From: Nibribacter ruber
GTDB lineage: Bacteria; Bacteroidota; Bacteroidia; Cytophagales; Hymenobacteraceae
Length of the DNA stretch: 64,000 nt
Assembly: GCF_009913235.1 (NCBI RefSeq)
Contig: NZ_CP047897.1
Location: 2,913,001 to 2,977,000, forward strand
Direction: 5' to 3'
Under the pieces are notes generated by a model. That model saw nothing but the letters and a program-made list of their open reading frames with translations. It searched no databases and was not told where the DNA came from. How positions within the stretch are numbered: position 1 is the stretch's first letter; each line of letters starts with the position of its first letter. The position numbers and the translations under genes are program-made. Positions 44,862-49,610 of the stretch are shown in pieces.

Positions 44862-44958
44862 ACGCTTGCCTATCTTCCCTCTGTGGATAACTTTATTTCT
44901 ACCGGCAAAAGCGGTATCTTTCTCCTTTCCCAACCTTTATCATCCACAAACAAACCTT

Positions 44959-47886
44959 ATGAAACTACCTTCTCTCATTATAGGGCTGGTGTTAGGGGCA
45001 GGTGCGGTGTCTGTACAAGCACAGTCCGTCGTCAAAAAGCCTTTAACCCATGACGTCTATGACAGTTGGAAAGCCATTGCAGACGACTCCCTCTCGGCAG
45101 ATGGCAAGTTCTTGTTGTATGGCATCAACCCGCAGGAAGGCGACGGCGTGCTGCATTTGCGCGACCTGACCCAGGCCAGCGCGGCCAAACAGTTTGCCCG
45201 AGGCTACCGCAGCGCCTTCACCACAGACAGCCGCTTTGCCATTTTCCAGATAAAGCCCGCCTTTGCCACCGTGCGCCAGGCCAAGCTCAAAAAGAAGAAG
45301 CCTGAGGAAATGCCCAAAGACTCTCTGGCCATTCATGACCTGAGCAAAGGTAGTACCCAGTACGTGGCCCGCGTGAAGACCTACAAACTGCCCAAGCAGA
45401 ACGGCGAATGGCTGGCCTATCACCTGGAAGCACCCTTGGCAACCAAAGCATCCAAAGACACTACCAAAGGCAAAGCCCCGGCCAAACCTGCCGCTAAACC
45501 AGCGCCTAAACCTGCTACAGGCGCCAGTAAGCAAGACCCCACCGAGCTGGTATTGCGCCACCTGCCTACCGGCCAGGAGTTCCGCTTTGACCGCGTGACC
45601 GACTACCTGTTCTCCAGCAAAGGCAGTACGCTCTTCTTCGTGAAGGCTGAAACCGATTCTCTGCACAAAGCTGGCGTACATGCCTTCAACACCGCTACCC
45701 GCAAAGCAATGCCAGTAGACACGGGCCGTGTGAGCTATAAGAACCTCGCGACGGATGCCACTGGTCAGCAACTGGCTTTTGTAGCCAGCAAGGACAGCGC
45801 CGGCAAAGACCTGCGCTACTTCCATCTCATGCACTGGACCCAGAAAGATAACCGCACCAAAATACTAGCAGACACTGCGTACAAAGGCATGCCGGCCAAA
45901 TGGATGGTAAGCGAGCACGCGCAGCTGGGCTTTGATGACAAGGGCGAGCGCCTTTTCTTCGGGACGTTCCCGCGGCCTATGCAGTACGAGAAAGACACCA
46001 CCAAGCTAGAAGAAGATAAAGTAAGCCTGGACATCTGGACGTACAAAGATCCCCTCATTCAGCCAATGCAGCTCAAAAACCTAGAGCGGGAGCAAAAGCG
46101 GTCTTTTTTGGCGGTATATGACCTGAAGGCTAAGAAAATGATTCAGCTGGCTACTTTGGAGATTCCAGAGGTAGCCTTAAACCCGGGCCGTACCTCTGAT
46201 TATGCGGTAGGGATCAGTAACGTGAACTACCTGTTGAGCGTGGGCTATGATTCGCCTTCTAAACAAGATGCCTGGTTAATCAACCTCAAAGACGGAAGCC
46301 GCCGACTTGTCTCCAAAGCCACCAGAGGGAATCCAAGACTATCGCCGGCTGGCAAATATCTGTACTGGTATGAGCCCGCCGACAGCTCCTGGAAAGCCAT
46401 GAGCGTGAAGGCCAACGCGCCTATCAACCTGACCCGCGCCCTTAAAACGCCTTTCTACGACGTACAACATGACATGCCTACCCTGCCAGAGGAGTACGGT
46501 TTGGCCGGTTGGACCAAGGAAGATGAGCATTTGCTAGTGTATGACCAGTTTGACATCTGGCGCTTAGACCCAAGCGGAAAAGACAATGCTGTGAACGTGA
46601 CAGATGGCTTTGGCCGGAAGAACAATTTGCAGTTCAGATACCTAAGCTTGAACCCTTCGCAGCGCACCATTCCGGCTGAGGACAAGCTCTTGTTGAGAAC
46701 CTTCGATTGGAAAACCAAAGGCAGCGGTTTCTACACAGACTACGTGACCAAAGCAGGAGCCCCGCAGAAGGTCTTAATGGAACCGTACTCTTTCACGGGG
46801 GTGCAGAAAGCCAAGAACGCTGACCGCCTCATCTTTAGAAGAGGCAGTTACACTATGTTCCCAGATGTTTGGGTGACCACTACCAGCTTTGCAACTCCGC
46901 AGAAAGTAAGCGATGCCAACCCGCAACAGAGCCAGTACGCTTGGGGTACCGTGGATCTGGTAAACTGGCGCTCCAATGACAACATTCCGCTGGAAGGCCT
47001 CTTGTTCAAGCCAGACAATTTTGACCCGAATAAGAAGTACCCCATGCTGGTATATTTCTATGAGCGCAACGCCGAGACCCTGCACAACTACCGCACGCCG
47101 GCCCCAAGCGCCTCAACTATCAACATTCCATTGTTCGTGAGCCAGGGCTACCTGGTGTTTGTGCCAGACATTGTGTACAAAGACGGCTATCCAGGCGAAA
47201 GCGCCTACAATTCCATCATTCCGGGTGTGCAGAGCCTAGTAGCCAAAGGATTTGTAGACGAGAAGAACATGGCCTTGCAAGGCCAGAGCTGGGGCGGCTA
47301 CCAGATTGCGTATCTGGTGACGCGTACCAACCTGTTCAAAGCCGCCATGGCCGGCGCGCCGGTGAGCAACATGACCAGCGCCTATGGCGGAATACGTTGG
47401 GAAAGCGGTATGAGCCGTCAGTTCCAGTATGAGCGCACGCAGAGCCGGATTGGTGGAACCCTCTGGGAGAAACCGATGCAGTACATTGAGAACTCCCCGC
47501 TGTTCTTCGCCCCCAAGGTAGAAACGCCTTTGATGATTATGAGTAATGACAATGACGGCGCTGTTCCGTGGTACCAGGGCATTGAGTTCTTCATGGCCTT
47601 GCGCCGTCTGGAGAAGCCGGTGTGGATGCTGGTCTACAACGGCGAGGCCCACAACTTGATGCAACGCAAGAACCGCAAAGACTTGTCCGTACGCCTGTCG
47701 CAGTTCTTCGACCATTACCTGAAAGGCGCGCCAGAACCAGCCTGGATGAAGAAAGGCGTGCCCACGCTGGTGAAAGGCAAGGAATACGGACTGGAGCTGA
47801 TTGAAGAGCCGGCCATCACCACGCCAACGCCCGGTCAGCCGCCTGCCACTACCGCCACCGCCGTACCAGTGAATGCCGGTAAATAA
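44959..47886 (+). CDS. S9 family peptidase (prolyl oligopeptidase/DPP-like), secreted
   Basis: This serine peptidase is expected to cleave oligopeptides in the periplasm or outside. The 975-residue protein has a signal peptide (cut near SVQAQ, about 22) and a long beta-propeller-like region (about 30-680) with a Lys/Ala/Pro-rich insertion near 170-195 (AKPAAKPAPKPA). The C-terminal hydrolase has nucleophile GQSWGG, Asp in SNDNDGAVPW and His in EAHNLM. The ATG at 44959 begins the signal peptide; the frame extends to 44866 without family support. The C-terminus is Pro/Thr-rich. Confidence 0.93.
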   Translation: MKLPSLIIGLVLGAGAVSVQAQSVVKKPLTHDVYDSWKAIADDSLSADGKFLLYGINPQEGDGVLHLRDLTQASAAKQFARGYRSAFTTDSRFAIFQIKPAFATVRQAKLKKKKPEEMPKDSLAIHDLSKGSTQYVARVKTYKLPKQNGEWLAYHLEAPLATKASKDTTKGKAPAKPAAKPAPKPATGASKQDPTELVLRHLPTGQEFRFDRVTDYLFSSKGSTLFFVKAETDSLHKAGVHAFNTATRKAMPVDTGRVSYKNLATDATGQQLAFVASKDSAGKDLRYFHLMHWTQKDNRTKILADTAYKGMPAKWMVSEHAQLGFDDKGERLFFGTFPRPMQYEKDTTKLEEDKVSLDIWTYKDPLIQPMQLKNLEREQKRSFLAVYDLKAKKMIQLATLEIPEVALNPGRTSDYAVGISNVNYLLSVGYDSPSKQDAWLINLKDGSRRLVSKATRGNPRLSPAGKYLYWYEPADSSWKAMSVKANAPINLTRALKTPFYDVQHDMPTLPEEYGLAGWTKEDEHLLVYDQFDIWRLDPSGKDNAVNVTDGFGRKNNLQFRYLSLNPSQRTIPAEDKLLLRTFDWKTKGSGFYTDYVTKAGAPQKVLMEPYSFTGVQKAKNADRLIFRRGSYTMFPDVWVTTTSFATPQKVSDANPQQSQYAWGTVDLVNWRSNDNIPLEGLLFKPDNFDPNKKYPMLVYFYERNAETLHNYRTPAPSASTINIPLFVSQGYLVFVPDIVYKDGYPGESAYNSIIPGVQSLVAKGFVDEKNMALQGQSWGGYQIAYLVTRTNLFKAAMAGAPVSNMTSAYGGIRWESGMSRQFQYERTQSRIGGTLWEKPMQYIENSPLFFAPKVETPLMIMSNDNDGAVPWYQGIEFFMALRRLEKPVWMLVYNGEAHNLMQRKNRKDLSVRLSQFFDHYLKGAPEPAWMKKGVPTLVKGKEYGLELIEEPAITTPTPGQPPATTATAVPVNAGK

Positions 47887-47995: not shown

Positions 47996-48803
47996 ATGAA
48001 CACCGCCACTACCAACATCACCGCCGTCCTGCTGGGCAAACTCGGCGAAGCCGTACAAAGCATCTTTCAACAGAAGCCGTACAAAGCATCTTTCAACAAA
48101 AGCCCCTCACGGGAGTAGAAATGCACCACGACCTGAATTGGGTGGAACCCCTAGATGAAAGTTCTCAGCATCAAAAAGAAGAAGTACTGCTCTTGGTAGC
48201 CGAGGCCGAAGCGCTTACTCCAGACATGCTTTCAAGGCTGGGAAAGAGGCCTCCCACCATGTTTACCATTGCATAACTGTGGCTCCAACGGACCACGTGA
48301 AAGTCTCTACGGGGAAGCATCAAGAGGTTCTGGCAACTGTAGACTCCATGATTGTGTTACCATTGTCAGGAGACGTTCCGGCTTTTCAGGACCCAGCCTT
48401 GTTAGCAGCCATCAAGCAAACCATGACGTACCTGATTGCGCTTATTCAAGAAGCGTTGCAGGGTGGGGTGAATGTAGACTTTGCAGATGTGAAGACCGTG
48501 ATTAGAAGCAAAAGACCGTCTTCAGTAAGTGTGGCCAAGGCCAGCGGAAAGGATCGGGTAGCCCTGGTCACCGAGCAGCTTTTTTCTTCGCCGTACATGG
48601 TGCCTGGCCAGGCCAAGGATGCAGCAAGAGTCTTACTGCAAATTTTGTCAAGTGCCAAGGCAGAACTAGAGATGGATGAACTAAACGACATCACAGACGC
48701 CATTCAAGAGGCCTGCGGCGAGGAGAGTGAAGTCATCTTTGGTCACTCACTGGAGAATAGTCTGGACCATGAGTTGGAAGTGTTTCTGCTGGCGTCTTAC
48801 TAA
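47996..48803 (+). pseudogene. Divergent FtsZ/tubulin-like gene, disrupted by a 26-bp tandem duplication
   Basis: An ATG at 47996 opens a frame that ends early (TAG 48116-48118) because a 26-nt unit is present twice, exactly, at 48047-48072 and 48073-48098. Removing one unit restores the frame up to a TAA at 48274; one base added near 48272 then joins the open frame running to 48803, which could also start at GTG 48279. The joined product of about 261 residues resembles FtsZ throughout: GVE after the first helix, VDSMIVLP, the T7-loop-like NVDFADVKTVI, ARVLLQI, EMDELNDITDAIQEA, VIFGHSLENSL and a final VFLLAS. The tubulin G-box GGGTGTG is absent (AEAEALT is in its place). It is probably a decayed, non-GTPase FtsZ paralogue; the C-terminal part alone may still be made. 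Confidence 0.75.
48047..48098 (+). repeat. Perfect 26-bp tandem duplication (two units)
   Basis: Units 48047-48072 and 48073-48098 are identical and start GAAGCCGTACAAAG. Twenty-six is not a multiple of three, so the duplication shifts the reading frame of the FtsZ-like gene. Confidence 0.97.
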
Positions 48804-48815
48804 ACCCGCGCGACG

Positions 48816-48853
48816 CGTTTTTGGGCTGTTTTTCAGGAAATAGCCTTAAAACG
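48816..48853. repeat. 38-nt dispersed palindrome, copy 27, overlapping a stop codon
   Basis: The arms are CGTTTTTGGGC and AGCCTTAAAACG. TTA at 48846-48848 in the right arm is the stop codon of the minus-strand GH25 gene. Confidence 0.85.
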
Positions 48854-49610
48854 CAGGTTCGGTTTGCGCAAGTGCAGAGGAAGAAGCCGCTGCCGGAGCC
48901 ACAGACGGTTGTGGCAGGCAGTGGGTGTTGAGGGCGTTGATGTCGCCGTAGAACCAGTTCACGTCTACGGGGGTTTTAATGCCCTTTACCGTGCCTTTTT
49001 CTGAATACTGCCAGAAGGCCATCTGGTCATTGGGGTGCGTAGAGGGCTCCTCGTTTTTGTAGCGGGCAATCCAGAACTTATAGCCGGCAAAGTGGCCTCT
49101 CAGCTTTTTGTCATAGAAACCCTGGTAGGTGTAGATGATGGGCTTGATGCCGTAATGATCTTCAATGCCCACCAGCCAGCGCTTGATGTCAATGCGCATC
49201 TGGGCGTCTGAGATGTCTCTGGCGAAGGTCTCTAAATCCAGTACTGGTGCTAAATCTCCCGGCTGCAGGTCTACGGTCTTCTTGAACAGTTCTATCTGCT
49301 GGTCTACGTTTACCCAAGGCAGGTAGAAATGGTAGGCGCCGCGTTTAATGCCGTGCTGGCGGCTAAGTTCCCAGTTGCGTTTAAAGTAAGGATCGCGCAG
49401 AAAATCGCCTTCGGTGGCTTTCATGAACGCGAAGCTGATGTTAGATTCCTTCACGTGCTCCCAGTTCACCTCGGCCTGGTATCTGGACACGTCAATGCCG
49501 TGCAGAAAGTTAGACGAGTTGGTATTGGCTCCCATCAAAGTGATACTGCCCGCCAAAAGAACGGTAGCAGTGAAGGTTCGCCAGCCAGCTGTAGTAAAAA
49601 AGGAAGCCAT
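48846..49610 (-). CDS. GH25 family lysozyme, secreted
   Basis: The enzyme should cleave the N-acetylmuramyl linkage of peptidoglycan. The 254-residue protein has an N-terminal signal segment (about 1-30). The GH25 barrel follows: GIDVSRYQ with the first acidic residue, AFMKATEGD, GAYHFYLP, the catalytic DLE in APVLDLETF, and FWQYSEKGTVKGI near the end. The last 15 or so residues are Ala/Pro/Ser-rich, and the stop codon itself lies in a dispersed palindrome, so the C-terminal tail may have been altered by it. Confidence 0.94.
   Translation of the reverse strand: MASFFTTAGWRTFTATVLLAGSITLMGANTNSSNFLHGIDVSRYQAEVNWEHVKESNISFAFMKATEGDFLRDPYFKRNWELSRQHGIKRGAYHFYLPWVNVDQQIELFKKTVDLQPGDLAPVLDLETFARDISDAQMRIDIKRWLVGIEDHYGIKPIIYTYQGFYDKKLRGHFAGYKFWIARYKNEEPSTHPNDQMAFWQYSEKGTVKGIKTPVDVNWFYGDINALNTHCLPQPSVAPAAASSSALAQTEPAF

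Follow-up and report, generated by a model that had tools for sequence, protein, structure and literature searches.

The 64,000-nucleotide stretch of Nibribacter ruber DNA analyzed here (the window) holds a broken FtsZ-like gene whose relatives in the Hymenobacteraceae form a family tied to WYL regulators and nuclease-type genes. We refer to the FtsZ-derived proteins of these WYL/nuclease loci as FtsZL, a name coined here. By their domain content, FtsZL proteins keep the C-terminal domain of FtsZ, mostly with the acids of the synergy loop, and are missing either the GTP-binding box or the entire N-terminal half. A WYL regulator adjoins most short FtsZL, and nuclease-type genes (GmrSD, Mrr) also lie next to many of the WYL-linked ones. 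FtsZL is a real family, and it is strongly linked to WYL loci. That association is observed directly in the gene neighborhoods; what it means we put forward tentatively, with a little less than even confidence, namely, that the window stretch is the relic of a defense-linked FtsZ mimic and that FtsZL would act as bait for phage inhibitors of FtsZ.

The window gene lies on the + strand at 47996-48803 and is split over three frames, with the extent and the motifs that an earlier note on this DNA had read from it. Its 5' piece (47996..48118, +) runs from an ATG at 47996 to a stop at 48116-48118 and encodes 40 aa. The first frame break results from a direct tandem duplication of a 26-bp unit, of which two full copies can be read by eye at 48047..48098 (+); Tandem Repeats Finder places the 26-bp unit at 48047-48104 (96% matches, score 109). 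The middle piece (48121..48276, +; 51 aa) is in a different frame and is stop-terminated, and the second break is a frame change near 48270. The third piece (48279..48803, +) has 174 codons with 0 internal stops and encodes the FtsZ C-terminal domain, with the T7 (synergy) loop VNVDFADVKTVI kept, as had been claimed, along with the motifs AELEMDEL and SEVIFGHS.

For the family searches, the three pieces were taken separately and the frame breaks were left as they stand. The 174-aa piece matched Pfam FtsZ_C (PF12327) at 2.5e-9 and 37.8 bits, exceeding the gathering cutoff of 27, and NCBIfam TIGR00065 (ftsZ) at 9.9e-14 and 51.4 bits; since the latter is far under the equivalog cutoff of 295.2, we do not call the piece FtsZ. 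Against PDB sequences (E up to 0.001), it gave 47 distinct matches, 47/47 of them named FtsZ, with a best value of 1.1e-11. By these matches, its similarity to FtsZ is not due to chance, which upholds the homology proposed in the earlier note. The note had further described an alignment along the whole FtsZ fold; of this, the C-terminal part is borne out and the N-terminal part is not, because the 5' piece (in Pfam) and the middle piece (in Pfam or NCBIfam) match nothing significantly. It was right about the G-box: neither a GGGTGTG box nor a match to the Tubulin/GTPase domain (PF00091) was found in the three pieces. The predicted structure of the FtsZ-like protein, from a two-row alignment, was of poor quality (pLDDT, 53). 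The window gene thus shares with FtsZ (TIGR00065; PF12327) the C-terminal domain, the synergy loop, and motifs of the ELEMDEL and EVIFGHG types but differs in having no G-box or GTPase match and in the size of its recognizable part (174 aa versus ~500 aa). It is also a second gene besides a canonical ftsZ, found elsewhere in the same genome (a single contig of 4.35 Mb) by a match at G000:C1:1267014-1267304 within an open frame of 499 aa, and its relatives, unlike FtsZ, lie in or near defense-type loci.

The window copy is a decaying remnant or at most a half-length gene. That its 3' piece still works as a short gene made of the C-terminal domain only is unlikely, even though its 174 codons have no stop and all three motifs are present, and even though FtsZL that lack the N-terminal half and measure 172-193 aa do occur elsewhere (L077, L080, and L083). 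Against it stand the two frame breaks upstream, an earliest listed start codon that is merely a GTG at 48279, and the loss of its partners: the 3.8-kb site locus (L103) gave no tblastn match to the WYL or GmrSD proteins of the congener described below, and the sole WYL match in the window's genome is 118 kb from the remnant.

Among 59 related genomes, the best relative of the window gene was a 47%-identical frame in the congener G013, an intact orthologue of 266 aa (L033, 5909-6709). This protein matches FtsZ_C at 53.5 bits (cutoff, 27) and has no match to PF00091. Neither result that the earlier note named as fatal to its reading was obtained, since profile similarity to the FtsZ C-terminal domain is significant and intact orthologues exist. 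It is encoded last in a single-strand operon in the order exonuclease, GmrSD, GmrSD, WYL, FtsZL; the partners are an RNase_T exonuclease, two proteins with a GmrSD_N domain (87.4 and 80.8 bits; cutoff, 33.2), one of which also has GmrSD_C, and a WYL/WCX regulator. Going by the GmrSD_N domain, the operon fits GmrSD Type IV restriction, an activity that is predicted only. A second set, GmrSD, GmrSD, WYL, and FtsZL, is present on a 155-kb second contig of G013.

The orthologue and the window gene occupy the same chromosomal site. In both genomes, it is bordered on one side by GH25, LptB, GH3, and AIM24 genes and on the other by S9 peptidase and RecJ genes (names other than GH25 were given by eye); in the window, the S9-type peptidase at 44866..47886 (+) forms the left border and the GH25 glycosyl hydrolase at 48846..49610 (-; PF01183, 6e-47) forms the right border. 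The GH25 gene was found in 16/16 genomes of the genus and FtsZL at the site in 2/16, G013 and the window's own. The 3.7-3.8 kb at the site in the other 14 gave no FtsZL match (tblastn, E 1e-6, over 60 aa), and these 14 include the nearest relative by GH25 (G007, 87%). The two FtsZL are 47% identical and the six bordering genes 68-94% identical. The tree places L033 closest to the window copy by path, and no supported branch unites the two. A single insertion may have given rise to both copies, or a hot spot may have received two. Two things escaped the earlier note: a congener retains a complete operon at the site where the window has only a remnant, and the relatives are tied to WYL/GmrSD and other nuclease-type loci.

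Across the family, 37/204 genomes gave at least two matches to the L033 protein. A follow-up search of 36 of those 37 genomes, the window's own being excluded, located 37 noncanonical FtsZ places in 35 genomes; with the alignment as query, G106 no longer gave a second match. These places sort as 5 FtsZ inside the Septu ATPase PtuA, 5 paralogues of ~310 aa, and 27 others, mostly short FtsZL, several of them broken. With the window copy added and G061 left out (it was missing from the WYL gene count), 27 FtsZL entered a test of proximity to WYL genes. WYL genes are scarce, with 55 in 35 genomes, yet one lies within 6 kb of 18/27 FtsZL, whereas the number of WYL genes per genome predicts 0.099. 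The corresponding Poisson value, 1e-34, takes no account of shared ancestry, and several of the loci are near-copies (L038, L077, and L078). No WYL gene was found within 6 kb of canonical ftsZ (0/35), of PtuA-borne FtsZ (0/5), or of the ~310-aa paralogues (0/5), and none within that distance of 9/27 FtsZL, including the window copy.

GmrSD-type genes are also present in 11/18 WYL-linked loci (L033, L034, L038, L077-L083, and L099), as found by blastp against 18 references only, so that the E-values are small-database values. Two of the remaining seven loci (L088 and L100) encode a protein with an Mrr_cat domain, and the partners in L086, L087, L092, L094, and L095 are without a clear family; the partner in L095 has a PDDEXK_4 match at 0.048 only. 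Genes of ~240 aa that adjoin some FtsZL had suggested uracil-DNA glycosylase (UDG) by eye, a candidate that we rejected, leaving the genes unnamed: the L087 gene matches UDG under the cutoff (0.017) and nothing in the PDB, Pfam gave nothing at 0.05 for those of L086, L092, and L094, and that of L092 has no PDB match either. FtsZL is encoded last in L033, L034, and L082 and first in L038 and L086, and it occurs on both chromosome and plasmid; given the differing gene order, this is not one frozen operon. On plasmid NZ_CP094538.1 of Hymenobacter monticola, which is not independent of the 18 loci, the genes MTP16_RS25490 to RS25475 are annotated as hypothetical protein, sigma factor, WYL, and DUF262. 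Matching plasmid records numbered 32, of which 14 are labeled ftsZ, and three uncultured phage contigs were matched in the C-terminal part only, at 30-33% identity.

Many FtsZL are divergent. None of the ten divergent copies scanned with Pfam exceeded the FtsZ_C cutoff, and L038 (26.4) and L078 (26.2) fall just below the cutoff of 27; the kinship of copies under the cutoff is based on blastp and on the A1 profile (53-105 bits), which was built without the ten divergent copies. The paralogues of ~310 aa occur in genera g1 and g3 (L036, 5706-6611; L037, 6122-7063; L074, 5512-6462; L075, 5650-6579; L076, 5516-6445). Those of L074-L076 adjoin a 165-171-aa gene and a 338-339-aa gene (with a Hist_deacetyl match in L075), and no recognized defense gene was found near any of the five.

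Outside the family, at least two FtsZ matches were found in 7 genomes of a 390-genome sample of the order Cytophagales. Two loci from two other families of the order, L211 and L212, have FtsZ_C and WYL matches over the cutoffs within ~2 kb, L212 with GmrSD_N over its cutoff as well. In both, the WYL gene is on the strand opposite to FtsZL; the L212 copy has one internal stop and lies on the canonical side of the tree, and the L211 copy has a very long branch. Given these strands, the stop, and the tree positions, the two may be of separate origin. No WYL label was found near L208, L209, L210, or L213 (three genomes), and the extra matches in G312 and G379 were left out. Approached from the regulator, an alignment scan of the contig collection recovered 407 WYL relatives, the best 80 of which are mostly Bacteroidota by title. 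With flanks fetched for these best 80 of 407, FtsZL was found near 1/80, in L135 (an uncultured Pontibacter that is not independent of L082), and we therefore rejected the view that the WYL/GmrSD module always includes FtsZL. The WYL module has a wider spread than FtsZL, which has been added to it in a few lineages. In the wider module, a repeated-unit protein of 99-100 aa (L137, 3349-3648; L142, 1550-1849; L152, 5355-5654; L129, 3459-3761) precedes a gene resembling the L033 exonuclease.

In five further loci, FtsZ is carried whole within another protein. The first ~94 residues of PtuA precede the FtsZ insert; the remainder of PtuA and then PtuB come after it (L035, 5134-7506; L070, 5379-7751; L071, 5442-7781; L072, 4337-6721; and L073, which is broken). 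The Septu identity of L035 is given by its matches to PtuA (8e-139) and PtuB (8e-90), and the genes of L070-L073 were assigned through blastp to L035. The FtsZ borne by the L035 PtuA keeps its Tubulin/GTPase domain (164 bits). PtuB matches occur in 33/204 genomes and comprise the five FtsZ-insert loci (64-100% identical) and weaker ones. L035, L070, L071, and L072 resemble Septu in encoding PtuA and PtuB; they differ from it in the FtsZ insert, for which no match was obtained in the family's seven next-best PtuB loci (33-36% identical). In three of these seven, both parts of PtuA are close together, and in four, the N-terminal part of PtuA was unmatched.

The inserts do not share one history. 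In a tree of 26 FtsZ, in which L073 is a partial sequence and L071, L072, and L073 have long branches, a single clade for the five PtuA-borne FtsZ was rejected (p-AU, 0.0023) by an AU test run after a smaller tree had been seen. The canonical FtsZ of the L035 genome forms a group with the inserts of L035 and L070 (99/92), and the L073 insert falls inside the canonical FtsZ clade of its genus (100/100). The L072 insert lies outside the canonical clade of its genus and is ~61% identical to the canonical FtsZ compared; the L071 insert has no supported placement. The simplest reading is that three of the five inserts were acquired from host-genus FtsZ or underwent gene conversion with it. As far as domain architecture shows, PtuA-borne FtsZ is a second design, separate from short FtsZL.

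Both designs would suit a bait. In this mechanism, FtsZL or PtuA-borne FtsZ would also be bound by the phage division blockers that attach to the synergy-loop face of FtsZ, and capture of the inhibitor would switch on the nuclease, either directly or by ending repression by the WYL regulator. In the accessible text of PMC13423816, the binding site of T7 Gp0.4 on FtsZ is in the C-terminal, synergy-loop region, in a manner compared there with SulA and MciZ; Gp0.4 protects FtsZ segments 199-206, 262-270, and 292-303, and the Enterobacter protein CapRel-Ebc responds solely to the complex of Gp0.4 with FtsZ. The accessible text of PMC9122601 describes a WYL regulator that represses a defense island, with 48% of its homologues located with defense systems.

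The half of FtsZ retained by FtsZL is the half that carries the Gp0.4-binding face. Among 20 FtsZL (the conservation table omits L085 and L211, and also the near-copies L077 and L078), the acids at E. coli FtsZ positions 209 and 212 are canonical in 80% and 95%, and positions 232, 235, 261, 270-275, and 294-296 are also strongly conserved. Conservation is enriched in the Gp0.4-protected segments by permutation (p 0.027, or 0.008 including the rest of the T7 loop), yet a circular-shift control attains the same conservation value in 29/117 positions (20/117 including the rest of the T7 loop). The enrichment is modest and the shift control failed, and the argument from the face therefore rests on the surviving half rather than on fine conservation. 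The conserved acids could be structural. A bait that releases a nuclease upon inhibitor capture fits both the neighboring genes and the host-like inserts; host-likeness in 3/5 PtuA inserts only (not L072 or L071) speaks against it, as do the 9/27 FtsZL with no WYL gene within 6 kb, the ~310-aa paralogues with neither WYL nor a recognized defense gene nearby, and the 79/80 WYL loci whose fetched flanks lack FtsZL.

The same face would serve a different role if FtsZL were itself the effector, its synergy loop binding the nucleotide face of host FtsZ so as to cap filaments and halt division in infection or stress. This idea of the earlier note we regard as unlikely, although it would explain why acids 209 and 212 are kept at these frequencies with no GTPase domain in cis, and although the accessible text of Kaur et al. 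2020 (PMC7159879) lists rare FtsZ/tubulin domains among the effector domains of conflict systems. Many neighbors already supply nuclease-type effectors, and a poison would need neither the strong Tubulin/GTPase match of the L035 insert nor the closeness of three of the five PtuA inserts to the FtsZ of their genus. The neighboring genes point more to sensing than to filament poisoning.

Less probable again is a DNA-bound coregulator, in which the FtsZ domain would be an oligomerization or ligand module in transcription control together with WYL. This would account for the FtsK_gamma winged helix found over the Pfam cutoff at the C terminus of 5/10 divergent FtsZL, which joins an FtsZ C-terminal-like domain to FtsK_gamma in one small protein (L086, 5919-6731; L087, 5669-6469; L088, 5514-6269; L091, 5514-6350; L092, 5522-6415); the genomes of these five have only one other FtsK_gamma, in a ~1000-aa frame taken as FtsK. 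It would also accommodate a 107-aa gene between FtsZL and WYL (L038, 5330-5653; L077, 5685-6008; L083, 5710-6033), which is sigma-like in two loci (a Sigma70_r2 match of 23.8 against a cutoff of 24 in L038 and the annotation "sigma factor" in L083). However, FtsK_gamma is absent from the other five of the ten scanned and from L033, L034, L036, and L038, and the fusion to PtuA suggests no role in transcription.

That FtsZL are ordinary ftsZ duplicates decaying in variable defense islands, which gather accessory genes, and have no defense function is similarly improbable: several copies are broken or very short (the window copy, L079, L085, L097, and L098), FtsZL branches are long, and five long paralogues sit in other settings, but the excess of WYL neighbors (shared ancestry ignored), the differing gene orders on chromosome and plasmid, the recurrence in two other families (L211 and L212), the motifs conserved in intact copies, and the presence of FtsZ inside PtuA all argue against it.

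If bait is the right reading, it may extend to both designs. We consider it possible, and somewhat less probable than the bait role of FtsZL itself, that at least two unrelated defense designs use FtsZ copies as molecular bait: a stand-alone half-FtsZ by WYL-controlled nucleases and a whole FtsZ in a Septu ATPase, the latter at least twice drawn from the host genus or host-like.

Makarova and Koonin reportedly described FtsZl-1 and FtsZl-2 as tubulin-superfamily GTPase families in membrane-remodeling operons. Among the open-access matches listed, no title or abstract beginning reports a WYL/GmrSD or Septu locus with an FtsZ-derived gene. The nearest parallel is CapRel-Ebc: as given in the accessible text of PMC13423816, FtsZ is part of a defense trigger, as proposed for FtsZL, with its binding site in the synergy-loop region; CapRel differs in using the host's own FtsZ and an effector that modifies tRNAs, whereas FtsZL is a separate copy linked or fused to other defense genes. 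WYL-regulated GmrSD/DUF262 defense loci (for the BrxR family, see the accessible part of PMC9122601) share the WYL gene adjoining GmrSD-type genes, to which the relatives' operons add an FtsZ-derived gene; the window retains that gene alone. FtsZ/tubulin-superfamily domains have been reported in NTP-dependent conflict systems, but in the accessible part of PMC7159879, the FtsZ domains are rare effectors, with no mention there of WYL, GmrSD, Septu, or Hymenobacteraceae. Elsewhere, in the accessible parts of the sources, an FtsL-like toxin delocalizes FtsZ (PMC10440598), and FtsZ appears only as the target of the CbtA toxin (PMC12458937 and PMC5512222).

The window itself holds only a relic, yet it pointed to the FtsZL family. 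For many defense systems, the means of sensing a phage has yet to be found, and FtsZ copies would offer a testable trigger, the inhibition of FtsZ by phages. A search of defense operons for pieces of essential host proteins would be a way to other decoys. Should the bait reading be true, FtsZL and PtuA-borne FtsZ would play in bacteria the part that integrated decoys play in plant immune receptors; what they guard would be the division machinery, perhaps doubly in the FtsK_gamma-bearing FtsZL, through FtsZ and through FtsK.
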